A DNA stretch of 64,000 nucleotides from Siphonodentalium dalli (Eukaryota > Mollusca > Scaphopoda > Gadilida > Siphonodentaliidae). The stretch spans positions 30,382,987 through 30,446,986 of the forward strand of contig CP136063.1 in the NCBI GenBank assembly GCA_032622095.1, in the 5' to 3' direction. Positions 17,877-36,414 of this stretch are shown in pieces. The notes under the pieces were generated by a model. The model did not search any database. It was given only the letters and a program-made list of their open reading frames with translations, and was not told the origin of the DNA. The first letter of the stretch is position 1. Each line of letters starts with the position of its first letter. The position numbers and the translations under genes are program-made.

Positions 17877-17878
17877 GG

Positions 17879-18134
17879 CGCCACGATAAAGGATATTGTT
17901 GGTAATATATAATTAGAGAAGCTGGTTCAATCGAAACGTTTTATATAAGACAATGACAAGATAATAAACCAAAGCACATGCGAACGCAGTAGGTGTTCGA
18001 TTGAGAAACCGAGTTAACACAGTAGGTGTTCGATTGGGAATCCAAGGAAACACAGTAGGTGTTCGATCGGGAATCTCTATACCGGACGTACCGTAACTAC
18101 GCCGAACAAGTAATGCGAACCAATGTTATGGCGC
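17879..18134 (-). repeat. 3' LTR of the 17.9-23.4 kb element
   Basis: It shares 256 bp with the other LTR without a visible difference. On the sense (minus) strand it has three direct copies of a ~33-bp unit containing TCGAACACCTACTG, then TATATAA, the order expected of U3 enhancer repeats followed by a TATA box. Confidence 0.85.
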
Positions 18135-18135
18135 A

Positions 18136-18149
18136 GCCTCTTTTCTCTT
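18136..18149 (-). promoter_or_regulatory. Polypurine tract
   Basis: On the minus strand AAGAGAAAAGAGGC lies immediately upstream of the 3' LTR, the expected plus-strand primer site. Confidence 0.7.
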
Positions 18150-18183
18150 ATAAAGGAACTTTAAAACAAATTAATTACACAAA

Positions 18184-19278
18184 TTAAACATCTTCCTCGC
18201 TGAGGACATAGTCTGACAAATATCTCGGTGGATGTTTCTCGCGAGTTGATCTTCTGGGACTACTAGTACTCTCTGTGTCTTCACACATAGAAATTTCACT
18301 TGGTATTGTTTGTGGAACTGGTGGTGGACATACTGATACAGCACTGTCTGATTCATGACACAAGTTTTCACCATCTTCATCTGGAATGCAAGTCAGAGTA
18401 TGTTTAGGAGTGTTATTGTTAAGATTGATGTCGGTGGGAACTTTGTAACACTCGCTACGTTTTAAGCGATAGGAAGAGTTCCGAAGTTGAGATCCAACAA
18501 ATTTCTTCAAGTTACACCATGAACCGTCTATGCTTGTTACTAAATACCGGTCACGGGGTTTGTGCTTGTCTCTATCTGAATATATATAAACAAGGTCACC
18601 AATCTTCATATTTGTATCAACAGGAAGTTTCCCAGATGGTGATTTTGAAATCTCACTAGCAGGATGATTCAACGATCTTTGAGCACTCTGTTGAGAAATT
18701 AAGTCACAGTCTTTAATGGGTAACTGTTCACCGGTATACTGATCACGTTGGGTCCACATTTCATTTGCCGAAAGTCCGCGTGTCCGAATTCGTGAATTCA
18801 ACTGAGAAATTGCCACTGCAAGATTAACAGAAGTGAGAATGTCAGACCGGTTATATTGACGGGCAAGCTCATTTTCTACTTCTTGTACAGCCCTTTCAGC
18901 AAAAGGATTTTTGTTACAGTTCTTTGTCCTTCCGAGCTCGATAGCTACGAGATGGCTTTTTAAGAGACTGTCCTTGCATATAGCTTGAAAGCCAGGTGCT
19001 GGATCAGTACGCACAATAGTTAATGGACCTCCAGAGGGTTTTAATTTCAGACACAACTGTAACAAGGCATTGCGCAAAGTTTCTCCACGCTCATTGTCAA
19101 TAATAATTGCATCTGTGTATGAAGTAACACATTCTCGAATTACGAAAATGAATTGTTTATTTCTTCTGAAGACGTCAGCAGCGAATGTAGAACCAATAAT
19201 ATCAGGTGGGGGCTCCTCTGAACTTTGTTTCTGTAAAGTTTTTGGTACGGATCGGAGAGAGATGCACATGCGTGGCAC
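18184..19278 (-). pseudogene. Integrase catalytic core and C-terminus, frameshifted from pol
   Basis: This frame picks up integrase where the main ORF loses it. It carries a D,D-35-E triad: first Asp in FAADVF, second in RTDPAPGF, and Glu in FAERAVQE exactly 35 residues after the second Asp. A C-terminal domain (VGDLVYIYSDRDKH-like) follows, and a basic RRSTREKHPPRYLSDY tail. The zinc-binding N-terminal HHCC part sits in the upstream ORF and ends ..CHACAS. The two frames overlap at 19140-19278, with the switch (a -1 shift) near the ATCTCTCTCC sequence around 19265. Recoding inside integrase is not usual for this family, so a 1-nt indel is the simplest explanation. The first Met is incidental. 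Confidence 0.85.
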
Positions 19279-22200
19279 TGGGCAGACACAGTTTCGATAA
19301 TATTGTCCATATCCAAAGCAAAGAAGTACCGATGTAATACCATTTTCAGCTGGTGAGCAGAAGGATGGCTTAGCTTGATATGGAGAGCAGTAGCCACACC
19401 GTCTATAAGATTGCGAGGAATAACAATACGTTCTCGGTCATGAGTTAGAGCCTGTTCGTGCTTCACGACAAGAAGACCATCTTTTGCAACTGTGACAGAG
19501 TTCAGATACCGCTTGATGTCTCGAATGTTAGTCACTTTCTTGGAAGGTCGGGTTCCCTGTGTCAAGTGAGAATGAGTACGTCGAAGGTCATAGCATTCAG
19601 ACTGAGCCTGTAACCATGTAGACCTATTCACAAAGGGAAATCTCACATCCCCAGAAAGCACATCCTGTACACTTGTTTGACGAACAACAGAATCGGCGGT
19701 TTGTTGTATGAATAAACATATGCGGCACTCAGGATTGAAACACTCTGGTGCATTTCTGCTAGCGAAATCGGACATCAAATTCACACTACCAGGTAAATGG
19801 CGAACTGATACCTGGTATCTACTGACGACTGACAGAAATGTCGACACACGCGGGCTTGCAGAAAATTCACCTCTACACAACTTCTCAAAAGCCTGTACGC
19901 ATGGCTTGCTATCGGTGAGTAAACATGTTGGATCACAAGACTGAATGATGAATGCACTGAAATGCTTTATGGCTGCCGCGATACTTAATGCTTCAATTTC
20001 ACAAGGCAGCCATCGAATTTGTTGACTTCGCACTTTAGCACTGAAGAAGCCAGCCAACATCAACTTTTTGTTGCGAAGCACATATAACGTAGCACCAATA
20101 CCATTTTGCTTCACTGAACCATCGGTCACGATCCATAAAGAGTCATCTGCTCTTGGAAGCACAATTGACTGACAAGTAGACAAATGCTTTTGTGCTACTT
20201 TGAATGAAGAACACTGGTCGTCTGACCACTTTATACACTCCTGAGAAGCTCGACCGGCAATCATCGCATCAAGTGGAGCAAGAATACGAGAACACTGAGG
20301 AATCACACGCGATAGGACTTTATATGCTCCTATGAATGACTTCAAACCTTTCACTGTGGATGGAGGCACACATGTAGTAAGCGTAGTGACACGATGTGGG
20401 CTAGCACTGAGTGAACCATTTGACCATATCCAACCGAGAATCGATGCACGTTGAGGCACAATTACTGTCTTAGCGGCAGACAGTCGCAAATCTGACTTGC
20501 TGAATGCTTGAAGAACACGGCTCCAATTCAAAAGTAGTTCCTCCAGAGAATTTCCACCACAATAGAGATCATCAGCAAGCTTAACCACCACGCCTTCCAT
20601 GAGTAGGTCACCGAGTACACGTGAAAGAAGCTCTTCAAGCGCTGTTTCGGATCCTGGCATCCCCATGGCTGACCGCATATACACTCGCACTCCGCGATAT
20701 GGTGTTACTACTCCACAGTACTTTGTAGACTCTCGAGATAGCGGAATTTGATAAAACGAGCTTGTAAGGTCTGATACAGCAATATATTTCCATTGGCCGA
20801 TAATGCGTAGTGTTGAATCAACATCAGGCATCATGGATGGCGGAGGTTTGCTGTAGCGGCCGACATCAGCGAATGCTGTCACCAGTCTGTAATTACCATT
20901 CGGCTTTTTCACCAGGAAAGATGGATTAAGGTATTCAGCTACGACACCTGCATCTTCTGGACGTTGAAAAACACCACGCTCTTCAAGCTCATCAAACTTT
21001 TGTTGAAGTTCAACGAGTTTGTCTCGCGAGTATTGCGGCACATGACCTTTTCTTTGAGGAGGCTGAACAGGGCCCATGTTGACGACTGCTTGAAATGGAC
21101 CACAGGAACCGTTATAACCAGGATAGGCAGGGTCAAATACATGATCATAATCAGAAAGTACATCCAGGAACTTCTGTTTGATCTGCGGCGAAAGAATGTT
21201 GTCAGGATCCAATTGTACGGCATCAGAATGGTTTTTGTTGGTAGAAATGACATTATTACCGGTAGATGTAGGTACTGAAGTGCCGATAGGTGAAGGTGTC
21301 ATTATATTTAAGACCTGGCATATGTGTGAGCTTTTGTGGATAGTCTTTGCTTCAGGTGTGTTGTTTACAATTCTGATAGTTCCACCTACACTGCATATCA
21401 CATCTGGTGGAGGCCAGATTTCATCAGGTTCTGGGCACTTCTGCAGGTCGGGGCGAGGTTCAACAGCGACTGTGGAATCGGCATCTATGTCATCAGGCAA
21501 TTGTAATTCAACAAACTCTCCTGGCCAAACTGTTGTTGTTGTTGGGGGACCACGCACCACGTAGGCTTCGGCACGTCGAACACGATGTGGACCCGACATA
21601 CGAGGAGGTGATCCATAGACAAATATAGTCCCATCTCCAATAATAACTTCATTTCTGGCTGGTCTAACCATTATGTCATTAACGTTCATAAACGGAACAC
21701 CGGCAAGAATGTCCACATCCAATTGGTCTACAACCAATGCTTCAAGACTGAAGGTATGGTTATCTCGAGTCAACTGTAGACGAGTTTCTCCAGTAACAGT
21801 TAGTGGGCTGCTACCGTCTGCCTGAATTGCTGATTGGCAAGATTTCGTCACTTTGAGACCTAACTGGTGAGCAACTGAAGATTTCAGCATATTAGTTTCA
21901 GCCCCCGAGTCGATGATGATGGAAACTGGGTGATGCTTGTAGTAGGCAGCCAGGAAAGGTGATTTTCGCACTTGCACTCGTCTGGTTGGAATAGTAGGAG
22001 TATTCTTGACAGTTTCACAACTGTTGTCCAATCCAGTGTTCTGTATTTGCTGACAAATTTCTTCATCATTAAAGTTATCATCAGTGATCAGGACGGACCG
22101 AGCTCTGGTCATGAACTTTTTGTCGCGTGCAGGTAGGTGAGGACACATACTCAGGAAGTGACTGAAATCAGGTCGACCAGCCTGTTGACAAAGCGGGCAG

Positions 22201-22760
22201 CATTTTTGTCTGTTACCCGATGCTGCTTGTGGGAAGACTTTTGGAGAAGCTTTCCGGTCATAGTTAGTGGTAAATGCACGCATAACTTTTGTTTCTTCTG
22301 CAGAAATGACTTCATCTATGAGAGAATCCAACGCCATCGAAATTTCGGGTTTTATTGTAGCAAGCGAGCGAGAGCGTAATTCTGTACCATAACGTTGTTT
22401 TATCAACTTAGGTAAGTCCTTGTGTAACAGTTGCAGCCATATCAGAACAATGAGGTTGTCAAGTGTCGGCGAGAGCTCTTCATCTTCATCGGGTTGAGCA
22501 CCATGGTGTGATATGCCACCATCCCGTTTCATTAGACTGTCGTCGATGAAAGCCGATAATCGTTGGAACAAGTCTTCTGGGCGTTCATCGGGGAGATGCT
22601 TGATGTTTGCGAAGTCGATGAAGTGACTGCCTGTTGACTGAAAGCCAAAATGTTGACGGATTGCCTGCCAGACGCTTTCAAGCGATGTCGAGTTTTTCAA
22701 AATGGTGTTGCGTGAAATTATTGGGCAGAAGTTGGCGATTTGACCCAGCAGCAATTCCAA
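19140..22760 (-). CDS. Ty3/gypsy-like Gag-Pol: nucleocapsid, protease, RT, RNase H, integrase N-terminus
   Basis: A 1206-codon frame continuing from gag after an in-frame TAA; its first codon is TTG, not a real start. Residues 1-180 are helical gag; 187-206 hold a zinc finger of the form CPLC..H..C; the aspartic protease motif IDSGAETN is near residue 284. RT follows (VSDLTSSFYQIPL, AMGMPGSE), with the catalytic box reading LADD instead of the usual YxDD. Then come the gypsy-type connection (GLKSFIGAYKVLSRVIP), RNase H (VTDGSVKQNGIGATL) and an integrase HHCC zinc domain (HPSAHQL, CHAC). The last ~35 residues are frameshifted nonsense; the catalytic core continues at 18184-19278. The product would be processed into virus-like-particle proteins. 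The LADD variant is unusual. Confidence 0.85.
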   Translation of the reverse strand: MELLLGQIANFCPIISRNTILKNSTSLESVWQAIRQHFGFQSTGSHFIDFANIKHLPDERPEDLFQRLSAFIDDSLMKRDGGISHHGAQPDEDEELSPTLDNLIVLIWLQLLHKDLPKLIKQRYGTELRSRSLATIKPEISMALDSLIDEVISAEETKVMRAFTTNYDRKASPKVFPQAASGNRQKCCPLCQQAGRPDFSHFLSMCPHLPARDKKFMTRARSVLITDDNFNDEEICQQIQNTGLDNSCETVKNTPTIPTRRVQVRKSPFLAAYYKHHPVSIIIDSGAETNMLKSSVAHQLGLKVTKSCQSAIQADGSSPLTVTGETRLQLTRDNHTFSLEALVVDQLDVDILAGVPFMNVNDIMVRPARNEVIIGDGTIFVYGSPPRMSGPHRVRRAEAYVVRGPPTTTTVWPGEFVELQLPDDIDADSTVAVEPRPDLQKCPEPDEIWPPPDVICSVGGTIRIVNNTPEAKTIHKSSHICQVLNIMTPSPIGTSVPTSTGNNVISTNKNHSDAVQLDPDNILSPQIKQKFLDVLSDYDHVFDPAYPGYNGSCGPFQAVVNMGPVQPPQRKGHVPQYSRDKLVELQQKFDELEERGVFQRPEDAGVVAEYLNPSFLVKKPNGNYRLVTAFADVGRYSKPPPSMMPDVDSTLRIIGQWKYIAVSDLTSSFYQIPLSRESTKYCGVVTPYRGVRVYMRSAMGMPGSETALEELLSRVLGDLLMEGVVVKLADDLYCGGNSLEELLLNWSRVLQAFSKSDLRLSAAKTVIVPQRASILGWIWSNGSLSASPHRVTTLTTCVPPSTVKGLKSFIGAYKVLSRVIPQCSRILAPLDAMIAGRASQECIKWSDDQCSSFKVAQKHLSTCQSIVLPRADDSLWIVTDGSVKQNGIGATLYVLRNKKLMLAGFFSAKVRSQQIRWLPCEIEALSIAAAIKHFSAFIIQSCDPTCLLTDSKPCVQAFEKLCRGEFSASPRVSTFLSVVSRYQVSVRHLPGSVNLMSDFASRNAPECFNPECRICLFIQQTADSVVRQTSVQDVLSGDVRFPFVNRSTWLQAQSECYDLRRTHSHLTQGTRPSKKVTNIRDIKRYLNSVTVAKDGLLVVKHEQALTHDRERIVIPRNLIDGVATALHIKLSHPSAHQLKMVLHRYFFALDMDNIIETVSAQCHACASLSDPYQKLYRNKVQRSPHLILLVLHSLLTSSEEINNSFS

Positions 22761-23000
22761 TTATGTGACCTTTTGTGCAGCTGTTCGACGAGTGGCTGCT
22801 GCTATGGCATCACCATCATTAGTAAACCCACGAGAAGGATCGGCACGTGTCTTCTTACCCCATTTCACACCATCAACCAAAAAGGTTGCAAAATTTGCAT
22901 CTAATGACAATGTATAGTGGATGTTAGCTTTCCAACTTTCGAAGGAAGTCACGCTTTCGTCTTTTGTTAGGCACCATTGTTTCGGCGCACGACATGCCAT
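22761..23000 (-). pseudogene. Gag N-terminus, ended by an in-frame TAA
   Basis: From the ATG at 23000 (MACRAPKQW; an upstream ATG at 23021 adds seven residues) a gag matrix/capsid-like segment ([25 protein letters not shown]) runs to TAA at 22761-22763. The same frame reopens immediately downstream, with sequence that continues gag, so a single nonsense codon interrupts the polyprotein. Either it is a point mutation or the codon is read through; the rest of the element also carries a frameshift, which favours decay. Confidence 0.75.
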
Positions 23001-23119
23001 TGTCCTTGATCGATTTTGCACGACACCGTTTAGTCGGGAACCACTTCGAACGTGAAAACGATTAACTCTTCAAGATTAAATAAAACCACGTGTAGCCGGC
23101 GTAAATTCCGCGTGTGAGT

Positions 23120-23137
23120 CCGTTGAAGCTGCCACCA
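23120..23137 (-). promoter_or_regulatory. Candidate primer binding site
   Basis: Directly downstream of the 5' LTR on the minus strand the sequence reads TGGTGGCAGCTTCAACGG, starting with the TGG that pairs with a tRNA CCA end. The priming tRNA was not identified. Confidence 0.5.
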
Positions 23138-23393
23138 CGCCACGATAAAGGATATTGTTGGTAATATATAATTAGAGAAGCTGGTTCAATCGAAACGTTT
23201 TATATAAGACAATGACAAGATAATAAACCAAAGCACATGCGAACGCAGTAGGTGTTCGATTGAGAAACCGAGTTAACACAGTAGGTGTTCGATTGGGAAT
23301 CCAAGGAAACACAGTAGGTGTTCGATCGGGAATCTCTATACCGGACGTACCGTAACTACGCCGAACAAGTAATGCGAACCAATGTTATGGCGC
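23138..23393 (-). repeat. 5' LTR of the 17.9-23.4 kb element
   Basis: It matches the 3' LTR over 256 bp with no difference seen by eye, including the three enhancer-like repeats and TATATAA. Confidence 0.85.
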
Positions 23394-23559
23394 GGCCTTT
23401 GATTTATTTCTAGGAGTTGAAAAGCCCGGGGGGATTCCCCAGTCTAAAAATAGATGTATCCGTCCGCACAGTTAACAAGTTACCATCCTTATGGCAGTGG
23501 TATCTTAGCGTAGCGATGAGAGATAACTCTGCCTGGAGTTTGCGTCTGTTGGTCTCAAG

Positions 23560-24290: not shown

Positions 24291-24572
24291 ATGGGAGATG
24301 CTAACCTGAATAACCATGAGACCACCAACACAGAGAATAAACGACATCATTGTGACGTATGCGGGAAACTGTTCGCCACTCCAGGCAGCTTGGTGAGACA
24401 TAAGATAATCCACACCGGCGATTATAAGCCTCACCATTGTGATTTATGTGGAAAATCATTTAATACATCGAGCAGCTTGGTGACACACAAGAGAATCCAC
24501 ACCGGCGATAAGCCTTACCATTGTGATATATGCGGGAAATCGTTTAATACGTCGAGCAACTTGGTGACACAT
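24291..24572 (+). pseudogene. C2H2 zinc-finger protein, paralogue B, 5' part (split by retrotransposon)
   Basis: Starts MGDANLNN like the other copies. It encodes two full fingers (HCDVCGKLF.., HCDLCGKSF..) and most of a third ([18 protein letters not shown]), then hits the inserted element at 24573. Reading on into the LTR adds eight residues and a stop at 24596, so the present product would be a 101-residue, two-finger stub. The reading frame resumes without loss at 36415; the interruption is exactly one 5-bp target duplication plus the 11.8-kb element. No introns. Before the insertion the gene would have had 11 fingers and was otherwise open up to the degraded last finger. Confidence 0.9.
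24568..24572. repeat. Target-site duplication CACAT, left copy (right copy 36410-36414)
   Basis: CACAT flanks the 24573-36409 element on both sides, and the uninterrupted gene sequence in paralogues has it once (GTGACACATCAGAG). A 5-bp duplication is typical of Ty3/gypsy integrase. Confidence 0.9.
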
Positions 24573-24835
24573 ATTGTAAAAATTGGCTGTATATAATAAC
24601 CAGTTACAATATAATATATAATAATGAACATACTTACTATTAATACATCTTGACACAAACGAGGATTACAAAGGATATAAACTGTAGAATATACGTCTGG
24701 ATGGTTCGGTTTCTTTTTTGTTCTGATTTCTCCGGTTGCTGGTCCACTCGATTTCGACTCCGGATCCTCAGTATAATTTCCGGTCTAATAAGACTTTCTG
24801 CACCATATTTCCGGTTTAATCCCAATTTCACAACA
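24573..24835 (-). repeat. 3' LTR of the TatD-bearing element
   Basis: 263 bp, sense strand TGTTGTGAAATTGG..CCAATTTTTACAAT, with inverted tips. It contains several CCGG(A/G) motifs, two of them ACCGGAAAT (ETS-like), and a GTAAGT donor-like motif. No difference from the 5' LTR was seen. Confidence 0.9.
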
Positions 24836-24851
24836 CTATTCCCTTTTCTTA
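24836..24851 (-). promoter_or_regulatory. Polypurine tract
   Basis: Minus strand TAAGAAAAGGGAATAG directly abuts the 3' LTR. Confidence 0.75.
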
Positions 24852-25350: not shown

Positions 25351-28251
25351 TTAACGGTTGATCGGCTGGATGCCATACAGTCTTTGGGCATTTTCCTGTG
25401 TCCGAGCTAACACATCCTCCGGGGATGTTCCCAGGATCCGTGCTAAGGAGACAGCAACCTCCCCAATGACTGCAGGGGTGGTAAAAGGACGTCCCTGCGA
25501 ACCGAAATGGGGTGCGTCAGACTCTAAAAGTAACCTGCCTGGCTTGATGCTTCGAATAGCATCTTTCTGGACTTCATTAAAGCCGGCACAGGCTGTGGTG
25601 ACCCCGAAATAAGTGTTAGGTCTGAGATACGACCACCGGTCAACCATTTCTCTACATCCCGTGAAACAGTGGAAATGAATCGCTTGATGTTCGCGGGTTT
25701 CGGTTCTGACTTTATCCAGGGCGTTGTAGCTGACATCCTGACCCATATGCTGGCCAGGCCCCCCTCTTAAATGCATAATTAGGGGTTTGCCCCACAAACG
25801 CACCATCTCCAAAATTTGCCGGAAGAGATTATCCTGAATCAGTTGATCGCTATCCGGTAAAATAATGGAACGATCAAGACCAATTTCGCCGATAGCCACG
25901 ACAGCCGGGTGTGCTATTAAAGCCTTGAATTTATTCATTGTGGCTGGAACCAGTAACTGCTTGATTTTTTTCGGATGACACCCGACAGCAACCTTCCACT
26001 GAGAATCACAGGATAAGGTGTTGATATCTGGGTAATTATCGGGGTCGCAATAAATCTGGACGCCACCGATGACAGTGACGGGAAAGGACACCGAAATGTT
26101 AGTTGCCTGAATGGCTTCCAGTGCTGTGAATCTAGCATTCAGTTTGTGACTTTGACACATTCGATCAAGATGAAAATGAGAATCGATTCCCGTTAACTTC
26201 CGTTTTGGAATGCCAGACTGGCGAGCTAGTGCTTTTGTCATGGAGGTTAACACAGCTTTATAAGTCGGCTTTGGAAGGGTAACGGGAGTCGATTTGATGG
26301 ATGATGATGATCTAGCAGTTTTCACGCTGCTGGTAGGCTTAGTCGGCTTTGACACAGGAACGGGAGCCGACTTGGTGGATGATGATGATCTAGCAGTTTT
26401 CACGCTGCTGGTAGGCTTAGTCGGCTTTGAAACAGTAATGGGAGCCGACTTTGATGATGATGATCTAGCAGTTTTCACGCTGCTGGTAGGCTTAGTCGGC
26501 TTTGAAACAGTAATGGGAGCCGACTTTGATGATGATGATGATCTAACAGTTTTCACGCTGCTGGTAGCCTTAGTCGGCCCTGTGGTTGAGGGTTCGACTG
26601 GTAAGGTGTTGGTGCCTGTCTGAGATAAACAAGCTTTCTTTGCATCGGCTGTAACAGAAACCGGATGGGTACGTTTCCGCTCGATAGGCAGGGGATTATT
26701 CGCCCTGTACTGTTGTCTGGCTTCATACGTGTATTGTTGCCGGGCGTCGCAGATTTGCCTATACCGTTCCTTCCTCCTCTGCTTCCGGGTCAGACCGCTC
26801 AAAAGGTTGGTCGGAACCGGAGTAGATTTGGGCGGTTGTACAGGTGAGGTTGATATAATTGGTTTCACCGTTGCGGCCGAATTGACCTCGTGTTCGACTG
26901 TATAAAAATCATGGATTATGCAGGCCGCTGCTATAGCCGTGGGAGCTCGCTCGGGTTTGAAAAGGCCAGAGGCTGAAATGGTGGCCCGAGCTTCATTTAA
27001 CTCATCGACTGGGATTCGATTTTTGACAATGCGATCCCTCAGAATATCCATCAACCAAAAGTGGGAATTCGACTTTTGGAATTTCTGTATTTCACTGTCG
27101 GGCAGTTTATTTAGAATGGCTGCCAAGACCCGCCAATGGGTCAAACATGCGTTCGAATTGATCCGCGGTGCTATGCTGAACCCACTTGCTGGAGGGGTCA
27201 CTCCCATATCAGAGCCAAATGTTCGGATATGGTTGAGTGCCATTACTCCCAAGAAACAGGGCGTAGGAATTGCCTTTAAGTCCCAGTGTTCGTTAAGTAA
27301 ATATCTTAGCTTGGTGAGACGAGATTGCTCATCCAGCTCCCGAACATCTGGGCACAAAACTGCAGCGAAATGACTTAAGTCGTCCCTAACCTGTTGACGA
27401 AATATTTTGGGCACAGCCCCATAAATGTTGTCAAATTGCCACCAGCATGGTTTAACATGCTGCGTGTAAAAGTGATGCCGTTGCTGGCCCATAATAGGAC
27501 GGTCACAGTCCTTAAACACACAATGGTCGGGAAGTTGTGTGTCTCGACCGCCGGTACTAACTTCCTTTGACCCTGAAAAGGAAGAGCTTTGTGAGGCTAT
27601 GGTTACAGTTGGAATTTTAGCTTTTGGTGGGCCCACTTGGTCACTTCCAGTGTCGTCCAATATAGCATGAGATATATATCTCACGCACTGTTCGTCCACT
27701 ATGCAAGCTGGTGGATGGAAGGCTTCCTCAATCAACTTGCATAGAGGGTTAACGTTGGCAACCGCTTGAGTCTGTATTGGCTCGCTAACGGCTGGTGTTT
27801 GCTGTGATAAGTTTTCATCAGAGTCCACCTGCATAGACTCGACCGCTTGAGTTTGAATGGACTCAGTCACGGGAACCTCAGGCAGACTCGTCAGGAAACT
27901 TGGATAGAACAGGTCTATTATAGATTTGCCTTCCGTGGGGGATACGTTAATTTCCTCCTTTGCCGAGGCCGAATTAGCCTCACTCACTTCGACACCAATC
28001 AAGTTATCGATAGACTTTAAAATGTCTGATACTGGCAAAGGGGATAACATAGGTTTGGAAGAATTATCCAATTGAATATTAGGCAAATTCATACCTGCTG
28101 CATCCATAATTTCAACCCGCTCCCCACTGGACGAATTGTCCTCTGGCGGCTGGCTGTGCTCCTCATCAGAATCGATGTGCAGAGCCTCTGTGTCGACAGC
28201 AGTATTGTGCTCCTCATCAGAATCGATGTGCAGAGCCTCTGCGTCGCTCAT
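25351..28251 (-). CDS. ORF3: retrotransposon-encoded TatD-family metallonuclease with C2H2-like motif
   Basis: 966 residues. The N-terminus has a doubled EALHIDSDEEH motif in an acidic, disordered region. Residues 244-265 form a C2H2-like motif (C244-x4-C249-x10-H260-x4-H265); about 270-450 is probably helical and unrecognised. About 480-670 is basic Ser/Lys/Pro-rich with four copies of a ~25-residue SVKTARSSSS repeat. Residues 688-966 are a complete TatD domain: DSHFHLD (H692, H694), GEIGLD (E789), MHLRG (H827), HFHCFTG (H861) and LESDAP (D912), i.e. all metal ligands of this family. TatD proteins are metal-dependent DNases; human TATDN2 is reported to act on R-loops. Position after pol is that of env in retroviruses, but no signal peptide or membrane segment is visible. 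A role in cDNA or hybrid processing, or against host DNA, is inference. The start ATG at 28251 overlaps the stop of a short upstream ORF (ATGA). Confidence 0.93.
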   Translation of the reverse strand: MSDAEALHIDSDEEHNTAVDTEALHIDSDEEHSQPPEDNSSSGERVEIMDAAGMNLPNIQLDNSSKPMLSPLPVSDILKSIDNLIGVEVSEANSASAKEEINVSPTEGKSIIDLFYPSFLTSLPEVPVTESIQTQAVESMQVDSDENLSQQTPAVSEPIQTQAVANVNPLCKLIEEAFHPPACIVDEQCVRYISHAILDDTGSDQVGPPKAKIPTVTIASQSSSFSGSKEVSTGGRDTQLPDHCVFKDCDRPIMGQQRHHFYTQHVKPCWWQFDNIYGAVPKIFRQQVRDDLSHFAAVLCPDVRELDEQSRLTKLRYLLNEHWDLKAIPTPCFLGVMALNHIRTFGSDMGVTPPASGFSIAPRINSNACLTHWRVLAAILNKLPDSEIQKFQKSNSHFWLMDILRDRIVKNRIPVDELNEARATISASGLFKPERAPTAIAAACIIHDFYTVEHEVNSAATVKPIISTSPVQPPKSTPVPTNLLSGLTRKQRRKERYRQICDARQQYTYEARQQYRANNPLPIERKRTHPVSVTADAKKACLSQTGTNTLPVEPSTTGPTKATSSVKTVRSSSSSKSAPITVSKPTKPTSSVKTARSSSSKSAPITVSKPTKPTSSVKTARSSSSTKSAPVPVSKPTKPTSSVKTARSSSSIKSTPVTLPKPTYKAVLTSMTKALARQSGIPKRKLTGIDSHFHLDRMCQSHKLNARFTALEAIQATNISVSFPVTVIGGVQIYCDPDNYPDINTLSCDSQWKVAVGCHPKKIKQLLVPATMNKFKALIAHPAVVAIGEIGLDRSIILPDSDQLIQDNLFRQILEMVRLWGKPLIMHLRGGPGQHMGQDVSYNALDKVRTETREHQAIHFHCFTGCREMVDRWSYLRPNTYFGVTTACAGFNEVQKDAIRSIKPGRLLLESDAPHFGSQGRPFTTPAVIGEVAVSLARILGTSPEDVLARTQENAQRLYGIQPINR
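26290..26585 (-). repeat. In-frame ~78-bp coding repeats in ORF3
   Basis: Four nearly identical copies encode SKPTKPTSSVKTARSSSS-type units rich in Ser, Lys and Pro. Their near-identity suggests recent expansion; they form a basic linker before the nuclease domain. Confidence 0.85.
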
Positions 28252-28274: not shown

Positions 28275-28292
28275 GCTGAAAATAGAAAGAGG
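28275..28292 (-). promoter_or_regulatory. Candidate 3' splice site for the ORF3 mRNA
   Basis: On the minus strand CCTCTTTCTATTTTCAG ends 24 nt before the ORF3 ATG, a strong polypyrimidine-CAG acceptor in the gap between pol and ORF3. A GTAAGT donor-like motif lies in the 5' LTR at 36206-36211 (minus strand). Together they would make a subgenomic mRNA as for env. Inference from sequence only. Confidence 0.5.
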
Positions 28293-28350
28293 CCTTACAG
28301 ACTGATTTATGGCTGAGCATGAGAGTTCGAGTAGAAGCTTATAAAACATA

Positions 28351-31300
28351 TTAACATCTCGGGCATCGATAGGTGTCTAATTGATCAGCTTCTTCCTGTG
28401 TAATATTAACACATTCACCATGGTACCAATCATTGCAATAATCACACTGGAGCATCAATTTTCCACCCCATTTTTTCTGACATACGCAAAAAAGGCCAGT
28501 GGATCTCTCAAGTGTGACTTCTCCCGTCTCATGGAAGCGTTTTAAACATTTAGTTAGCCATGGCGGAATGGTTCGATCGTGACACTTTTTCAGTCGATCG
28601 TGATTTACCACATTGGTGGCACTTTTAAAAAATATTTTAAAAAGGTATGGCGTGTATACTTTAGCAATTATGCCTGGACCTTTCCAAAAAGAAGAAAGTT
28701 TTCGGGCTTTGCCTTTCTTTGTTGCGGTGTCCAACAAGTATACTAAATCACCAAGCTTATATTCAAATTTGTTAATTTTAACATCATAATCTCGCTTCAT
28801 TTTTTTACAAGCAGCCTTCAAGTGCTCACGCGCGAGTTCATGACAATCTTTATACTCTTTCACCAGCGTTTGCACATATTCGGCCGCGTTTTCATATTCT
28901 GGTATTTTTGAATTAAAATTAAAAACGAGATCTGACGGGTGATTTACCTCACGTCCCAGCATCATTCTATTTGGTGTAAAACCCGTAAGACGGTGTACCG
29001 ATGATCGCATGGCCCCGGCGAGCTGTGAAAGATACCTATCCCAGGAATTCTGGTTCTTATCAATATAACACCGGACGGCATTCATCAATGTCCGATTCTG
29101 GCGTTCTGCGGCCCCATTCGAGGAAGGTCGATATGGCGTGGTACGTGCCTTATGGATCTGAAGCGCTTCACACATAGCTGTGAACAGCTTTGATTCAAAA
29201 CACGACCCTTGATCAGAGAAAATTTGGAATGGGCATCCAAATCTCGAAAAGAACTCTTTAACAGCTGTGTATGCTGCTGTTTCGGCAGTCTGATCGGGTA
29301 ATGCTATAAATTCGACCCATTTGGTGAACTGACAGGTCATAACCAAAATATATTTATTTCCCTTCTGGCTGAGTGGCAACGGTCCCAAAAAATCAATATG
29401 TACACGTTCCATTGGGGCCCCAGCGTGGAAAGAAACCTGCTCCCATTTAGCATGTCGAACCGGTTTCTTGCCTTGATTACACTGGGGGCAGGCCGCCACG
29501 AATGTTTCAATATCTTCGCTAACCCCATACCAATAGTAATTTTGCCGTATCCGTTCTCGGGTACGGGTTACGCCCTGATGCCCTGATGCCGGAATATCAT
29601 GGGCGAGGGTCAGAATTTCAGTGGCAAACTTTCGTGGAATAACCAAGACTTGTTGGGAATCCCGCTTGATTTTGTACAACAATTTATTTTTTATGAGGAA
29701 ACGTTGCCGGTTTATCCAAATATACTTAGTAGCTTGGCTACTAATAAAAAGTTCACCTTCCCTGGGGTCTTTTCCAGTTTCTAACCACCCAATCACAGGG
29801 GCTAAGTCAGGGTCATAACGCTGAAATTCAGCGAGTTCGTCCAGAGTACATACATCCGCTAGGAGGGCATTATCCTTGGGGGTAGTGGTCTGTCGCACCC
29901 TGACTTCAGGTTTTAATCCCGATGATATTTCTAGGTCAACCTGGGAATGGGTCCAACCCGTGTTCGAACAGACGGAGTCTGTTGGTTCGTAGGGATCTTC
30001 CCACTCATCTCCCGGCTCCCACGAAAAACCTAGGGGAGGGTTTGGCTGACTATCTGTCTGGCGAATTGCCGGACTGGCGCTCTCAGATAGTTCGGCAAAC
30101 GTAATGGAACCTTTGGTTAGGGGAACCACATCGTCCACAGCATTTTCGAATCTGGTCCAGCTATTAAACACCCGAGTGCAATATTTACACCCACCACAAG
30201 GGAGATCAGAGAGTTTACACCCTGTGAAATACTCTTCACATGAGCCGTCCGCAGGAATTCTGGACAGCGCATCGGCATTTACGTGCAATGTTCCCTTGCG
30301 ATGCTCAATAACCATATTATACTCACCGAGTTCCTCTAACCACCTTGCAAGTTGTCCCTGCGGTTCCTTAAAGTTCATGAGCCACCTTAGGCTACTATGA
30401 TCAGTCCTTACCAAGAATTTCCGACCTAGCAGGTAGTGGCGAAATTGACGTATGAATCGTACTACTGCAAGAAGTTCTCGCCGTGTAGTACAATAACGCC
30501 GTTGTTGTGGGGACAGCACAAAACTACCAAAGGCGATAGCTTTCTCATTACCATCTTGGACTTGAATTAATTCCCCACCGATGGCAAAATTACTACTATC
30601 ACAGTCCAGAATAAAAAGGTCAGTTGAATTTGGTAGGCTCAGCACAGGTGGCGAGGTCAGCGCATCCTTGAGCCTATCAAATGCAACCTGCTGTTCTGGG
30701 TTCCATTTAAATTTATGTTTACCGGTGATGTCATATAGAGGTCGTGCTAACTCTGCATAATTTTTTATGAATAACCGATGATAATTAACTAGCCCACAAA
30801 AACTTTCTACCTCTCTAGTATTCTGGGGTACAGGCCAGCTTTGGACAACCTCTATAGATGATTCCATCATTTTCACACCTTGCTCACTCACAATTCTGCC
30901 CAGAAATTCAATACTTTTCTGAAAAAACTCACATTTACTGGGCTTGAGTTTAAGATTATATTTTCGGAACCGAGAGAGTACTTTTTCGATGTTTTCCAAA
31001 TGATTTTGAATCGAATTGCCCATCAGAACAACGTCGTCCAAGTACCCTAAACAGATATCCCAGTTCAGACCGTGCAATACCAAATTGATAACCCTACACC
31101 AAGTAAACGGGCTTCCAGTTAGGCCGAACGGCATTTTAATGAAATTGAAAATCCCGTATTTGGTCAGAAAGGCTGTTTTAGCACGGTCTTCGTCACGTAC
31201 GGTAACCTGATGATACGCAGCCAAACAGTCTGCCTTTCCGAACCACGAATTTCCACTAAGTGTGTCAAGACACTCATCAATTCGAGGCAAGGGGTAGACG

Positions 31301-32543
31301 TCTTTGCGGGTCACCGAGTTTATGACGCGATAGTCTATGCACCAGCGAATAGAGCCGTCCCGCTTTTTAACAAGGACAGGGGCTGATGCCCATTCCGACA
31401 CAGAGGGCTCGATGACCTTGGCCATCAAAAGCTTTTTCAAATGAGTTTCCTCTTGGTCGGCAAAGCATGCTGGGGTGCGCCTCATAGGCTGCTTAATTGG
31501 ACGAGCTCCCTCTAAAAGAGGAATACTATGCTCGATTTGGGAGAATGTACCCAAATCAAACTCGTCTTTTGCAAACACGTCTTGAAATTCCAGAAGTAGT
31601 TTTTCAAGGCGGGCTATGTCAGGCCCTGACAATAATTTCGAAGAGCGCTCAAATAGACTCTGTAAATATCCTGGAAGGGTGGAATTACCCACCAGGCGAT
31701 CTCCAGCGCTATTATTTGGGGAGCTCCCCGGAGATAAATAGTCCGGAGCAGATTCCGGCTTGGGCGCGCATGACTTGACGGAGTGTTCAATCACCTCATC
31801 AACTTCATAAGCTTCACCCACACATTGTAATTTATCTAAGATTATCTCTGAATGTTGAGAATTTATAAAACATACTTTTGGGGGGCTATACCCCGAGTGC
31901 AAAGTAGGCAAAATATACTCACCAAGTTGTTCATTGGGTTCAATAGTAAAATCAGCTAATGGTGGAATCGTTTCACACTGCAGTAACACAACTGACTGAG
32001 GGGGTATAACTGTTCGCTGATTGACTATAATTCTAGAAATTTTAGCCACTTTTGGTTTTACCTTGGGAATTGTAGGAATCCGACTCTTTCCCAAAAAGAT
32101 AGAACCTTTATTTGCCCCAATTTTTGCATCGTATTTAGTGAGAAAATCCATCCCAAGAAGCATGGGATCTTCAATGGGTGCTACATATATATTTTCACTA
32201 CACTCGAGTTCCCCAATGGTAATGTCTATGGGTCCCACCAACATACCTTCCATGTGACCATCACGAGCCGCCGTATTAAAGTGTAGAGATTTAATTAAGG
32301 GTGGCTCAGGGCTGAGTTGGTGAAACAATTTGTCAGAGATAATCGTAACATCGGCGGCTGTGTCTACTACTGCTTGGGTAACATGACCAGCTATTTTGAC
32401 CGGAACCTTGATGGCGGAGGCTGATTTAATTTGTTTAATAGTTAATTCCGGTTTGATTTCACCAGACGTTACATTTTTACCAGTTACGAGGTCATGAATT
32501 ATAATTGGGATCGGGCTCAGACCTCGGAAGTTGCCCCGTTCCC
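28351..32543 (-). CDS. Pol: protease, RT, RNase H, integrase with C-terminal PHD finger (-1 frame to gag)
   Basis: The frame is open from the slippery site at 32544-32550 through the gag stop, so Pol is probably made as Gag-Pol; no ATG is needed. Domains in order: aspartic protease (VVDTAADVT near 32360); RT with FGKADCLAAYHQV, MPFGLTGSPFTW and the YLDD box (about 31035); RNase H (ILDCDSSNFAIGG, about 30600); an integrase zinc domain HHCC (about 29560-29450); and a D,D-35-E core (HIDFLGPLP, FSDQGSCFE, NGAAERQNR, the last Glu exactly 35 residues after the second Asp). A GPY/F barrel (FWKGPGIIAKVY) follows. The last ~47 residues form a PHD-type C4HC3 zinc finger (CVC..CDYC..WYHGEC..CPRC). PHD fingers read histone H3 tails, so this may steer integration, as chromodomains do in chromoviruses. 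All catalytic residues are present. Confidence 0.95.
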
Positions 32544-35375
32544 GTTTAAATCCTCCTTAAATTTAACTTTATTATCCCGGTTAGGGCGATTTTCAGGATT
32601 CCGTGAAGGGCAGTCTCTTTGAAAATGCCCCACCCCCTGACAGGCATAGCAAATGACCTTGGCCTTGGGAGAGGGTGACCTTGACCTACTTTTGAAATCT
32701 GACTCTTTTTTATCAAAGTGAGAAATTGTGCCAGACTGTGGCTTATTGGTCGCCATCTTTTCTAAAACAGTTGTTAATTTCTCCACTGTCTTTTGGAGAG
32801 TTTCCATATTAGTTTCCAAGGCGAGCATACGTGCCTTGGAATTTGAATTATCGCTCGAAGTTTTCCAACTTGGAGCGCGGGGCGAAAATCTACGAGGGCC
32901 TGGTGAATCACCGGTCTCCGAATCGGAACCCTCGCGCTTGCCTCGGAAGTTGTATCCTCGCTGCTTTGGTCTACCACGACCAGTCTGTCTTACAGACCTA
33001 ACAGGAGAGGTTTCATCATCAGTATCCGATGAAACATGGCGCACGTCTTTGCGAGACACTTTGCTGCCATGAATAGCAGCATAATTGTGTTGATGCCATC
33101 GGATTCTGTTGATGGCTTGTTCCATGGACTGAGGTGTTTCCATGGTAACAAGTTCGGCCGCCCTGGTGTCAGAACAGCCTTGACAGAAGCGCAAGACCGC
33201 TTGCTTGAAGGTAAAATTGGCCGGACATTCTTTAAAGGCACGTGTGGCCAATGAGAGAACGGTCTCGGCCCATTCTTCCAGCGACTGACCAGTGACTTGC
33301 TTTGCTTGTTGGAATCGAATTTGGGTCGTTTCGGGCAAGTCTTTAAATCCGAAACGATTTTCCAACCCGTCAAGCAACTGAACAACTGTCAGATAGGGAT
33401 CACGCTCGGTAAGCAGCGTAAAATACTCGCTCGCTTTTCCTTTTAAACACCAGCAGAGAGCCTGCTGCTGCTCATCCCATCCCCAACGTTGCGACTGGGC
33501 ATACAAAGTGAATTTCACCCTGAAGGCTTGCCACGAGTCGATACCATCATACGAAAACCCTTTTGGCATATGAGGCAGTCGATAATCGCCCTGCCTTCCG
33601 TGAGGAGCGACTTGTTGATTGTATGGTTGATAACCTCCCGGCCCTGGACCAATTTGATTCATCCCGGGGTTTCCCATCCCCTGATTTCCCGGATTCTGTA
33701 TCCATTGATTTCCCGGGGGTGGTTGGTTATACCCAGGGTTCTGCATCCCTTGATTTCCCGGGGGCGGTTGGTGGTAACCAAGGTTATGCATCCCTTGATT
33801 CCCCGGGGGCGGTTGGTTGTAACCAAGGTTCTGCATCCCTTGATTCCCCGGGGGCGGTTGGTTGTAACCAAGGTTCTGCATCCCTTGATTTCCCGGGGGC
33901 GGTTGATTGTAACCCGTTCCCGATACATTGGGTCCCGGCTGAACCTGGGCATGAGAGCCTGGGTTTCTATAACCCGACATATCTTGATTAAACTGACCGA
34001 AGCCAGCTTGAGTGGTACCAGACCCTGGACCCCATGGGTTTAAGGGCCCGGTTGGCGTTGGATCGGTTGGCGGATTTAACTGTGCAAAACTAGTTTGACC
34101 CATGCCAGATTGAGTAGTTCCATAGCCTTGATGCCCGGTTGTTGCATATCCAGAATTTGGATTTAAATTGTAGTGTTGGCTACTCTGTGGTTGTGATCCG
34201 GCATAACCACGATTAGGTTGGTTGTAACCTGGCTGAGCGGGTTGACTCCATTGATATGATTTTCCATATGAGGAGGTGTATGTGCTGGCTATGGTCTGAC
34301 CATATGTACCAGACGTGGTGGCCTGGGTATAGACAGGACTATTTTGCATAGGCGGCACTCGCCCGTCACCTGCATATGCACCCTGCTGAGCGGCCGCATA
34401 GCTGCTCATTGGCGTAGACGTAGCAGGGGGTACAAAGCGTGACGATACCACTGTCGAATTGGCAGTTACGGTAGCTGCTGACGCTTGGCCGTGATGAACA
34501 AATGATGCAGCGGGGGCTACCACTGTTGAATAGGCAGGCATTGTAGTCGACGCTTGGCCACAGAATGAATAGGCCGATGAAAATGATGCAGCCTGTGGTG
34601 CCCCAACTGTAGAACTAGCAGTTACAGCTGCCGGCTGTTGGCCAAAAAGACCATAGGATGGTATAGCAGGTAGTGTCGGGCGAAACCCTGGAAACGGTTC
34701 GCCCGCACTTCGTGCTGGGTTGGAAACCATGGGGCTAAACCAAGCAACGGGTTGTGAAACGGTAACAGCAGCAGCTGCTTGTGTCCCATCGGCTTGGGCG
34801 CCATGTGTGATGTCACCCTGAATCTGGGATTCAGACCAGCGACGTCTTGTGAATTCTGGATCGGTCCTCGGATTTGCGATGGGAGAATAACCTTTCGCAA
34901 ATAAGGCCGCCATTTCCTGACTACTTGGGGGAGAAGGTGGGTGTGTTAGCTTACGCCTCACACTCTCCGGCATCTGCTCACCCCCGGCATCATGGAGAAC
35001 CATTTTCTCGGGGGTTGTTAAACCAGATGGCGGCTTCTTCTCTGTCTGGGGAGGGGTCAAGGGTGACTGGCTTCTTGCGTAATCCTCCCTTCCCTCACCA
35101 TCAGACTCAGACTGATAGTTGTTGGGGTCCGCATGAGCCCTCGGTACCCAGTTATCAGCTTGGGACTTTGAAGTTGGGTGACTAAAGTCAATCACACTCA
35201 ACTGATCCCTTGAACTTCTGAACCGGGGTACGAGACTAAGATCCCTTTGTGATATTAGAGTTACCTGCCGGCGTAACTGAATTATATCGGCGGCAATTTG
35301 GGGACCCACATGAGGAATTTGTTGCAACTCTTTCCAATTAGCTGTATTTATGAAAATCTTCATGTTGACCAACAA
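32517..35375 (-). CDS. Gag with N-terminal helix-hairpin-helix and CCHC zinc knuckle
   Basis: 952 residues, much longer than a typical gypsy Gag. Residues 9-36 (NTANWKELQQIPHVGPQIAA..) match the ComEA-type helix-hairpin-helix, a sequence-independent DNA-binding motif. Residues ~40-600 are disordered, rich in Pro, Gln, Gly, Tyr and Ser, with a 15-residue repeat (GYNQPPPGNQGMQNL) at about 485-570. About 601-770 is the Gag capsid-like domain (PKGFSYDGIDSWQAF.., later FRFGFKDLPETT-like and SLEEWAETVLSL). A basic stretch precedes the CCHC knuckle C909-x2-C912-x4-H917-x4-C922. The start at 35375 is followed by MKIF; the first ATG was chosen. It would assemble the particle and bind RNA. The low-complexity tract could drive condensation; that is inference. 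Confidence 0.92.
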   Translation of the reverse strand: MLVNMKIFINTANWKELQQIPHVGPQIAADIIQLRRQVTLISQRDLSLVPRFRSSRDQLSVIDFSHPTSKSQADNWVPRAHADPNNYQSESDGEGREDYARSQSPLTPPQTEKKPPSGLTTPEKMVLHDAGGEQMPESVRRKLTHPPSPPSSQEMAALFAKGYSPIANPRTDPEFTRRRWSESQIQGDITHGAQADGTQAAAAVTVSQPVAWFSPMVSNPARSAGEPFPGFRPTLPAIPSYGLFGQQPAAVTASSTVGAPQAASFSSAYSFCGQASTTMPAYSTVVAPAASFVHHGQASAATVTANSTVVSSRFVPPATSTPMSSYAAAQQGAYAGDGRVPPMQNSPVYTQATTSGTYGQTIASTYTSSYGKSYQWSQPAQPGYNQPNRGYAGSQPQSSQHYNLNPNSGYATTGHQGYGTTQSGMGQTSFAQLNPPTDPTPTGPLNPWGPGSGTTQAGFGQFNQDMSGYRNPGSHAQVQPGPNVSGTGYNQPPPGNQGMQNLGYNQPPPGNQGMQNLGYNQPPPGNQGMHNLGYHQPPPGNQGMQNPGYNQPPPGNQWIQNPGNQGMGNPGMNQIGPGPGGYQPYNQQVAPHGRQGDYRLPHMPKGFSYDGIDSWQAFRVKFTLYAQSQRWGWDEQQQALCWCLKGKASEYFTLLTERDPYLTVVQLLDGLENRFGFKDLPETTQIRFQQAKQVTGQSLEEWAETVLSLATRAFKECPANFTFKQAVLRFCQGCSDTRAAELVTMETPQSMEQAINRIRWHQHNYAAIHGSKVSRKDVRHVSSDTDDETSPVRSVRQTGRGRPKQRGYNFRGKREGSDSETGDSPGPRRFSPRAPSWKTSSDNSNSKARMLALETNMETLQKTVEKLTTVLEKMATNKPQSGTISHFDKKESDFKSRSRSPSPKAKVICYACQGVGHFQRDCPSRNPENRPNRDNKVKFKEDLNGNGATSEV
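32544..32550 (-). promoter_or_regulatory. -1 ribosomal frameshift site UUUAAAC at the gag-pol overlap
   Basis: On the minus strand the heptamer T-TTA-AAC sits in the exact phase required (gag codons TTA, AAC), 8 codons before the gag TGA (32517-32519). The -1 frame is open from there into the protease. Downstream, CGGGGC and GCCCG could form a stem, with an inner ACTT/AGGT hairpin. UUUAAAC is one of the most efficient known -1 slippery sites. Confidence 0.8.
33660..33925 (-). repeat. 45-bp coding tandem repeat in gag
   Basis: Five to six copies of a 45-bp unit encoding GYNQPPPGNQGMQNL; the central copies are almost identical, suggesting recent expansion. Confidence 0.85.
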
Positions 35376-36146
35376 ATCACTAAATATTAACCACTATGAA
35401 ACCTTGCACTACCTAGACGCTAAGTAAAATATAATTACAACCAATTTCCCATAGAATCTAGGAAAACTACTCTATATTTTACCACATCTATTTTTATCCA
35501 AAAAGAAAATAGTAACGAACAATAGAGAATATATTGTTCTATTCAACATGCAAAATACGCGAAGAGATGACCATCAAATTACAACAAGAGCGAAATTGTT
35601 TCCATCTTCCGTCTTCTCCGGTCAAATATCAAAAACCTAAATAAATGGATCTTTAATAATTCACGTACAGTGATGTCGATTATGTAATTAAACCGACTGG
35701 AAAATCTGTGCGAATTGGACAATAAATTTCCAGCGATAACATATTTTGAAAGTGGCGAGAAGCAAAAATTGCTGCAAAATCACTTTAATAAATTGATTTA
35801 TGGGGAAGCATGCACAACACAGGAATTCCGGATGTACAAGTGGTGTGATGAAAAATTTAACCCAGAATTGAAGCAGAGATTTCCATGTGGAATTCACCGG
35901 AAAAAATTCAAAGTTATTTCAACACTCTATTCCCACAAAAACAAAAAAACAAAAACCCACCATGCGTAAAAAGCAAGGAGAATCCATTGAAATAAGCATG
36001 GAAGGCTAAATGAGTAAGCAAAGTGAAAAAACAAGCTATAGAAGGCAATAGAATAAACCACGCTGAAATCACGTGGAAATTGGGGTAGAAAAAATACGAG
36101 AAATTATTCCGCAAAAAACATCAAATAATTAACGACTAACGTCAGT
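35376..36146 (-). other. Leader between 5' LTR and gag
   Basis: About 770 bp without long ORFs. The bases right after the LTR (ATACTGACGTTAGTCG on the minus strand) do not begin TGG, so no standard tRNA 3'-end primer site is visible. The packaging signal presumably lies here. Confidence 0.5.
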
Positions 36147-36409
36147 ATTGTAAAAATTGGCTGTATATAATAACCAGTTACAATATAATATATAATAATG
36201 AACATACTTACTATTAATACATCTTGACACAAACGAGGATTACAAAGGATATAAACTGTAGAATATACGTCTGGATGGTTCGGTTTCTTTTTTGTTCTGA
36301 TTTCTCCGGTTGCTGGTCCACTCGATTTCGACTCCGGATCCTCAGTATAATTTCCGGTCTAATAAGACTTTCTGCACCATATTTCCGGTTTAATCCCAAT
36401 TTCACAACA
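36147..36409 (-). repeat. 5' LTR of the TatD-bearing element
   Basis: No difference from the 3' LTR was seen. The sense-strand GTATATTC motif is a possible TATA box and the GTAAGT at 36206-36211 a possible splice donor about 200 nt into the LTR. Confidence 0.9.
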
Positions 36410-36414
36410 CACAT

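Follow-up and report, generated by a model that had tools for sequence, protein, structure and literature searches.

Long terminal repeat retroelements of Siphonodentalium dalli that carry a TatD-family nuclease domain in a third open reading frame

Organization of the element

A 64,000-nucleotide (nt) stretch of Siphonodentalium dalli contig CP136063.1 (GCA_032622095.1), which we refer to as the window and to which all coordinates refer, contains on its minus strand a long terminal repeat (LTR) retroelement in which a TatD-family nuclease is encoded behind gag and pol by a third open reading frame (ORF3). A preliminary description made from the letters of the window had proposed this arrangement. 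Our analyses indicate that it holds, and that it recurs in several element families when judged by pol, LTRs, target-site duplications (TSDs), and Pfam domain matches. We are highly confident about what the element is and what it carries. Gag, pol, ORF3, and the polypurine tract follow one another in a single orientation, and the features of the element are as follows:

36409 down to 24572, minus strand: whole element, 11,838 nt
36410..36413, minus strand: TSD, 5' side (TGTG in element sense)
36146..36409, minus strand: 5' LTR, 264 nt, matching the 3' LTR over its full length
36110..36145, minus strand: primer-binding-site region, CTGACGTTAGTCG...
32517..35375, minus strand: gag, 952 amino acids (aa) as listed, with CCHC knuckle CYACQGVGHFQRDC
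28351..32556, minus strand: pol open frame with protease-like AVVDTAADVTIIS, reverse transcriptase (RT), RNase H, integrase, and PHD finger
28354..28488, minus strand: PHD finger at the integrase C-terminus (Pfam expectation value, E, 4.1e-10)
28276..28297, minus strand: 3' splice-acceptor-like site, ending 24 nt upstream of the ORF3 ATG
25351..28251, minus strand: ORF3, 966 aa from ATG to stop (from the ORF list, genome copies, Pfam, and alignment)
27076..27546, minus strand: zinc finger and helical 'HWR' module, ORF3 residues 236-392, common to 21 aligned proteins
26222..26578, minus strand: tandem repeats of the ORF3 linker, KPTKPTSSVKTARSSSS-like, spaced at 75-78 nt
25354..26187, minus strand: TatD domain, ORF3 residues 689-966 (from Pfam, AlphaFold2, and Foldseek)
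24836..24850, minus strand: polypurine tract, AAGAAAAGGGAATAG in element sense with one internal T, abutting the 3' LTR
24572..24835, minus strand: 3' LTR, 264 nt, TGTTGTG...TTTTTACAATA, same sequence as 36146-36409
24568..24571, minus strand: TSD, 3' side (TGTG in element sense); TSDs of 4 base pairs (bp) in nine of nine full-length copies

As previously described, ORF3 lies between pol and the polypurine tract and is enclosed by identical LTRs (264 nt) and a TSD (TGTG on both sides). The LTR ends are TG...ACAATA rather than TG...CA, and the TSD is 4 bp. The pol frame is open from 32556 and has its first TTG at 32328; the gag frame lies at -1 relative to pol and shares 37 nt with it. Pfam matches to RT (320-478), RNase H (542-670), and integrase (897-1068) follow in that order along pol. 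No Pfam retropepsin match was detected from the first TTG onward, and the protease-like AVVDTAADVTIIS sits upstream of this scanned stretch. The CCHC knuckle of gag matches PF00098 (E 7.2e-06). A helix-hairpin-helix match at the gag N-terminus (35223-35360) is weak, scoring 26.7 bits (PF12836, E 5.9e-06) where the cut-off is 27.

The order of RT, RNase H, and integrase, together with the LTR pair, the 4-bp TSD, the polypurine tract, and the CCHC gag, corresponds to that of Ty3/gypsy elements, for which a TSD range of 4-6 bp is given (PMC12440569). Membership in the CsRn1 clade, which is defined by a CHCC gag and a tRNA-Trp primer-binding site (PMC2582038), was rejected because the gag motif is CCHC. 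Troyka, which is defined by 3-bp TSDs and CG...CG ends (PMC12440569), was rejected because the TSDs here are 4 bp and the LTRs start with TG. An env-bearing, retrovirus-like element was rejected because ORF3 lacks a membrane segment, as indicated by a highest 19-residue Kyte-Doolittle mean of only 1.3 (1.1-1.7 in seven other ORF3s). The element is best explained as a recently active Ty3/gypsy-type LTR retroelement, one of a large group in which the env slot probably codes for an accessory nucleic-acid enzyme rather than an envelope protein.

Copies and mobility of the element

The S. dalli genome (2.23 Gb, 9 contigs) was searched for further copies, and the match counts given here and below are lower bounds. 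At least 81 matches to ORF3 were identified from the best 47 of 4435 first-look candidates. Nine of these, denoted family 1, are full-length copies that share 99-100% identity, lack stops, and are distributed over seven of the nine contigs; degraded copies with stops are also present in the genome. LTR pairs flank all nine full-length copies, with both ends read. The LTRs of a pair are identical within the LTR in eight copies, and in seven the single mismatch shown is the base just outside the LTR; in the ninth, a one-base length difference means that the ungapped mismatch count is not meaningful. TSDs were identified in all nine copies (TGTG, GTGA, GAAT, ATAT, ATAA, ATAT, GTAG, GGAC, and ATAT). 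Because nine near-identical copies have both LTR pairs and TSDs, we infer that the element has moved recently with ORF3 inside it. An assembly chimera, which the preliminary description had named as grounds for doubt, is excluded because near-identical copies flanked by TSDs lie on seven contigs; chance proximity of ORF3 to an LTR element is likewise rejected by the TSDs. Homologs of ORF3 that occur only as host genes had likewise been named, and the genome search instead revealed homologs linked to LTR elements.

Twenty further ORF3 matches (L018-L037) were read, fifteen of which (L018-L032) comprise a second family. In 18 of the 20, the same strand carries whole or partial pol upstream of ORF3; in L026 and L037, no pol was found within the sequence read. 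Within family 2, pol lies upstream in 12 of 15 copies, two more have a shrunken pol and a trace of gag, and one has none in the stretch. All 15 copies have a 3' LTR. A 5' LTR was identified in seven of ten 5' regions read. Its outer edge is visible in six of these, and all six copies, for which both outer edges can be seen, have matching 4-bp TSDs (CAAC, ACAG, CAGT, GTGT, ACTC, and GTAT). The primer-binding site of one family-2 copy (L038, 1078-1103) reads CTGGCGTCGTCGACAGGATTCGAACC and resembles a tRNA 3' end; at the same position, five other copies read CTGACGTTTGTCG and one reads CTTACGTTGGTCG.

Domains and structure of the ORF3 protein

ORF3 comprises an acidic N-terminus, a C2H2-like zinc finger, a helical module, a repetitive linker, and a C-terminal TatD nuclease. 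The Pfam TatD_DNase model matches residues 689-960 over the entire profile (1-253; E 8.3e-34), and a phmmer search with ORF3 returned nine TatD-family sequences in PDB. A model of the TatD domain generated with AlphaFold2 from a 63-row alignment has a predicted local distance difference test score (pLDDT) of 95.6 and a predicted template modeling score (pTM) of 0.92. Foldseek ranked the TatD proteins of S. aureus, T. maritima, and E. coli and human TATDN3 and TATDN1 at the top for this model.

The metal ligands of TatD, which we take to be HxH, E, H, H, and D, had been reported as complete and in order in ORF3. An alignment of 21 ORF3-type proteins (seven from the S. dalli genome and 14 from the database) agrees with this: H692, H694, E789, H827, and H861 show no variation, and D912 is retained in 90% or more of the sequences, with Ala in its place in one Lytechinus protein. 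Residues C244, C249, and H260 of the zinc finger and R374 of the HWR motif are also invariant in this alignment. For residues 236-392, which comprise the zinc finger and the helical module, the structure is predicted at a pLDDT of 89.6. No match to their fold was found at E 0.001 in PDB or BFVD, and this predicted region is here treated as an orphan.

Further element families and the KptA domain

Screening of the genome with the Pfam TatD model yielded 529 first-look candidates, and all of the best 150 that were scored exceeded the curated cut-off. The open frames around these 150 matches span at least 500 aa in 90 cases and at least 700 aa in 71. Six further classes (L048-L053) were chosen for their long open frame, not at random. 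In all six, pol lies directly upstream on the same strand and aligns with the integrase-PHD part of the window element, ORF3 is open over 950-1492 aa, and a TatD domain was confirmed. Identity of the integrase-PHD part between distinct classes is 47-63%, with the L048-L052 pair at 68%.

LTR pairs were identified in five of these six classes and are identical across the aligned 196-378 nt. TSDs were found for L051 (TTAC), L052 (GATC), and L053 (ATAT). The 5' LTR of L052 contains an insertion, the outer edge of the L050 5' LTR falls outside the stretch, and L048 has no 5' LTR within the stretch. A purine tract followed by TGT is present at the 3' end of all but L048, in the tail of which no purine tract was seen by eye. 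A TatD-bearing ORF3 directly behind pol therefore occurs in eight families of one genome, with ORF3 enclosed by an LTR pair in seven and by matching TSDs in five (families 1 and 2, L051, L052, and L053).

The pol of each of these families ends in a PHD finger, as identified by Pfam in the window element and by alignment or by eye in family 2 and L048-L053. The closest solved relatives of the window finger are those of PHF2, BPTF, and PHF8. Since these fingers are readers of histone H3 trimethylated at lysine 4, a testable idea is that the PHD finger may direct insertion to the vicinity of active promoters.

Three of the six further classes (L049, L050, and L051) also encode a Tpt1/KptA domain in the same protein (PF01885; E 2.5e-41, 7.6e-48, and 1.6e-44, respectively). 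These domains are full length, and their best PDB matches are to tRNA 2'-phosphotransferase 1 (E 3e-25 to 3e-29). The Arg-His-Arg-Arg set that we take to be catalytic in KptA is, by eye, present in L049 and L050. Across the genome, the KptA model yielded 83 matches (150 of 154 candidates scored). KptA lies within 5 kb upstream and on the same strand in 33 of the 150 TatD matches, and in none of them downstream or on the opposite strand. A protein search with the KptA-zinc finger part of L051 returned ten proteins, seven of them named as oyster, with KptA as the sole listed Pfam domain.

Relatives and evolutionary history of ORF3

Families 1 and 2 share 91% identity in the integrase-PHD part (synonymous divergence, dS, 0.73; nonsynonymous divergence, dN, 0.05), 69% in TatD (dS 2.4-2.7; dN 0.24), and about 51% in the N-terminal part of ORF3, where dS is saturated. 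Judging from a dN/dS of about 0.1, the TatD domain is under constraint between these two families.

A search of the protein database with the whole of ORF3 returned nothing at E 1e-3, probably because the search words fall in the fast-changing first 500 residues. With the TatD part as query, a search restricted to lengths of about 530-1690 aa identified 73 proteins. Organism names are absent from 56 of these, and 16 are named as animals: Pinctada (five), Saccostrea (three), Argopecten, Dreissena, Ruditapes, and Haliotis (one each), Lytechinus (three), and Strongylocentrotus (one). The database clusters to which the 73 proteins belong contain up to 209 sequences, and large clusters may represent element copies or repeated sequencing. 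It had been suggested that mollusc gene lists with many 'TATDN2-like' genes consist in part of such elements. The 73 long TatD proteins, with 12 mollusc and four sea urchin names and dozens of sequences in some clusters, fit this suggestion as far as it can be judged from proteins alone. One 973-aa ORF3-type protein (P0033) is filed under a metagenome-assembled genome of Sedimenticola and likely represents DNA of an animal host that was binned with a symbiont. The single chain of a further database protein (P0071, 1493 aa, from the cluster of 209) contains TatD together with a CCHC knuckle, a zinc finger, and an HWQ motif; this points to a fusion of gag with TatD in a different lineage.

In a first phylogenetic reconstruction, ORF3-type TatDs formed one clade (100/99) of 69 rows, comprising 11 rows from S. 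dalli elements and 58 of 72 database rows and including both mollusc and urchin proteins; P0056, which covers fewer than 200 profile positions, was excluded from the input, and of the nine bacterial rows one lacked a usable domain. A second tree, from which 11 near-duplicate or long-branch rows were removed and to which three were added, recovered the clade again (100/99, 62 rows). In it, neither the bacterial TatDs nor two TATDN2-like TatDs of S. dalli (L134 and L136) fall within the clade of ORF3-type TatDs. Because the S. dalli elements need two changes on the tree, the ORF3 lineage is probably older than the S. dalli element families; one origin is also possible.

Relatives were also sought outside of animals. 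The best 80 of 541 relatives in GTDB genomes are all bacterial by title and share 24-33% identity, and nine of them provided the outgroup rows. In IMG/VR, 35 stretches fit a pattern, none of them coding for a relative. Within S. dalli, a multi-copy 513-aa frame (L135 and matches on C1, C3, and C8) was observed to combine a zinc finger, an HWR motif, and a TATDN2-like TatD. In the giant squid, TATDN2 is located in or by the Hox cluster, beside pogo-type and ZMYM1 genes (PMC6962438), a location that fits the picture but proves nothing.

Expression of ORF3

In env-bearing LTR elements, env follows pol and is expressed from spliced RNA. In six of the eight families, the 40 nt preceding the ORF3 ATG contain an acceptor-like site, and at most 4% of other stretches in those sequences score equally; for the window element, 1.4% of other element stretches score as high. 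The scoring follows a simple rule of our own based on general splice-site rules, and families 1 and 2 do not count as independent cases. Expression of ORF3 by read-through from pol was rejected because the relative frame of the two differs between families. We infer that ORF3 may be made from a spliced sub-genomic RNA.

Proposed function and alternative explanations

Tpt1 takes off a 2'-phosphate and ADP-ribosylates RNA ends. Among TatD proteins, that of E. coli is a 3'-5' exonuclease on single-stranded DNA and RNA, human TATDN1 and TATDN3 have abasic-site endonuclease activity, and human TATDN2 cleaves RNA both as a 3' exonuclease and as an endonuclease and resolves R-loops; tatdn2 of medaka is required in germ cells (PMC12709183). 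By analogy, the best reading of our data is that ORF3 would serve the element as an accessory nuclease acting on RNA or DNA ends or on hybrids. The zinc finger and helical module would tether ORF3 to nucleic acid or to a partner, and the TatD domain would trim or destroy RNA or DNA ends, so that RNA strands or ends that otherwise stop the element could be cleared or repaired. The preliminary description had conjectured that the nuclease may act on RNA:DNA intermediates of the element, on host R-loops, or on competing nucleic acid. Potential targets in our reading include remnants of RNA:DNA hybrids in the complementary DNA (cDNA), R-loop-like hybrids at the element's own loci, and ends left by host nucleases. 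Where present, KptA might mend or mark RNA termini. As a group, these RNA-end and hybrid roles are put forward tentatively, as plausible and short of probable. A broader proposal, about which we are somewhat more doubtful, is that the env slot of LTR elements in marine animals hosts an old radiation of repair kits (TatD with or without KptA on a new zinc-finger/helical scaffold) that defeat RNA-based host defense or rescue damaged element RNA and cDNA, and that are exchanged between backbones like retroviral env.

Several observations weigh against the best reading. The ORF3 TatDs group separately from TATDN2-like genes and need not share the TATDN2 substrate, and since pol already has an RNase H, a second hybrid nuclease would need a reason of its own. 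KptA is present in only three of the six sampled families and near only 33 of the 150 TatD matches, for 46 of the 83 KptA matches the next 5 kb downstream contain no scored TatD, and L051 has a Lys in the IRAxQGHS motif where a catalytic Arg would be expected. No TSD was found for L049, and L051 (12%) and L052 (61%) lack a good acceptor site. Constraint is weaker in the close pair of the window element and L035, with dN/dS values of about 0.26 (TatD), 0.55 (N-terminal part), and 0.9 (linker), and most other, deeper pairs of families are saturated at synonymous sites. Lastly, divergence between families 1 and 2 is greater in ORF3 than in pol, and this extends to synonymous sites. Because the dS of ORF3 exceeds that of pol, the two have partly separate histories, which are most simply read as module exchange, with the proviso that dS may be saturated.

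Two alternatives retain an active role for ORF3, and we regard each as unlikely. ORF3 could aid replication, with TatD located within the particle or next to it and trimming, before integration, the tRNA and polypurine primers or the flaps and 3' ends of the cDNA. The 3'-5' exonuclease activity of E. coli TatD (PMC12709183) and the linkage of ORF3 to pol across families are consistent with such a role, whereas the separate frame and the acceptor-like site in six of eight families suggest a separate, non-structural protein, and RNase H is already encoded in pol. Alternatively, ORF3 could serve counter-defense or competition by degrading guide RNAs, antisense hybrids, or rival cDNA, which would account for fast evolution and swapping between elements. 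The greater divergence of TatD and of the N-terminal part relative to integrase-PHD, and the gain of KptA in some families, point in this direction. However, the gap in dS (0.73 versus 2.4) fits module exchange at least equally well, and no dN/dS above 1 was obtained in the computed pairs where both rates could be estimated.

Two other explanations are far less probable. Retroelements do acquire host genes, and ORF3 could be a captured TATDN2-type gene that is carried without use, as the degraded copies with stops and the only moderately low dN/dS of the close pair might suggest. Long open frames in eight families, conservation of the ligands in 21 proteins, the low dN/dS of TatD between families 1 and 2, and a single clade that includes mollusc and urchin proteins make such a passenger very improbable. 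Still less credible is a multi-copy host gene family near which LTR elements inserted by chance. It is true that some TatD frames of 301-302 aa, TATDN2-like and with a CCCH-like finger, show no element in the short stretch read. Against this stand the constant order and strand and the LTR pairs around ORF3 in seven of eight families, and for families 1, 2, L051, L052, and L053 the explanation is refuted by matching TSDs. 

Comparison with known systems and implications

Human and fish TATDN2 carry TatD at the C-terminus of a longer protein, as ORF3 does. TATDN2 is a host gene, whereas the element TatDs form a separate clade and are joined to a zinc finger and helical module without a fold match. 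Similarly, the KptA domain of three ORF3s is full length like that of Tpt1/KptA (TRPT1; PDB 7yw2 and 7yw3) but differs in being fused upstream of TatD within a retroelement ORF.

Extra domains in LTR elements are already known (PMC9289625, PMC12440569) and have been called rare (PMC9289625). An orchid Ty3/Gypsy element with an ORF for an AlkB-like N6-methyladenosine RNA demethylase resembles the window element in encoding an additional, cellular-type enzyme that acts on RNA. It differs in the enzyme and in the kingdom, being restricted to Phalaenopsis in that screen, and its activity was demonstrated in vitro (PMC9289625), whereas that of the window TatD is predicted. Boudicca and Saci-3 of the CsRn1 clade are Ty3/gypsy elements that also have a third ORF, and a 4-bp TSD has likewise been reported for PwRn1 of the same clade; the ORF3 of Boudicca and Saci-3 resembles envelope proteins (PMC2582038), in contrast to the nuclease without a membrane segment described here. 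Errantiviruses and other env-bearing LTR elements have likewise added a gene (PMC12440569), but the window ORF3 is without envelope features. No description of a TatD-bearing retroelement was found among the listed titles and abstract openings of the open-licence literature, a scope outside which most subscription journals and Repbase fall, and the main text of a survey of mollusc LTR elements (PMC6238403) mentions neither TatD nor PHD.

These findings indicate that a nuclease family involved in DNA repair, R-loop removal, and protection of the germ-cell genome rides on several families of mobile elements, in some of them next to an RNA-end enzyme. Extra domains of this kind can reveal unfamiliar ways in which elements and hosts compete. 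If the enzyme acts on element hybrids or on host silencing RNA, it would offer a testable route by which elements escape control in the germ line. For annotators, multi-copy TATDN2-like genes may be transposon genes; if the proposed radiation of repair kits is true, many 'TATDN2-like' genes of molluscs and urchins would be element copies or their domesticated remains.

Additional observations in the window

A second LTR-flanked element was observed at 17874-23398 on the minus strand, with 266-nt repeats that share 99% identity. The bases flanking the chosen repeat edges do not match as a TSD. Matches to protease, RT, RNase H, and the integrase zinc-binding domain span 19140-22760, and an extra frame of 364 aa without a Pfam match lies at 18184-19278. 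The TatD-bearing element itself is inserted in an array of 84-nt units (24337-24571 and approximately 36434-37107) that, by eye, encode C2H2 zinc fingers.

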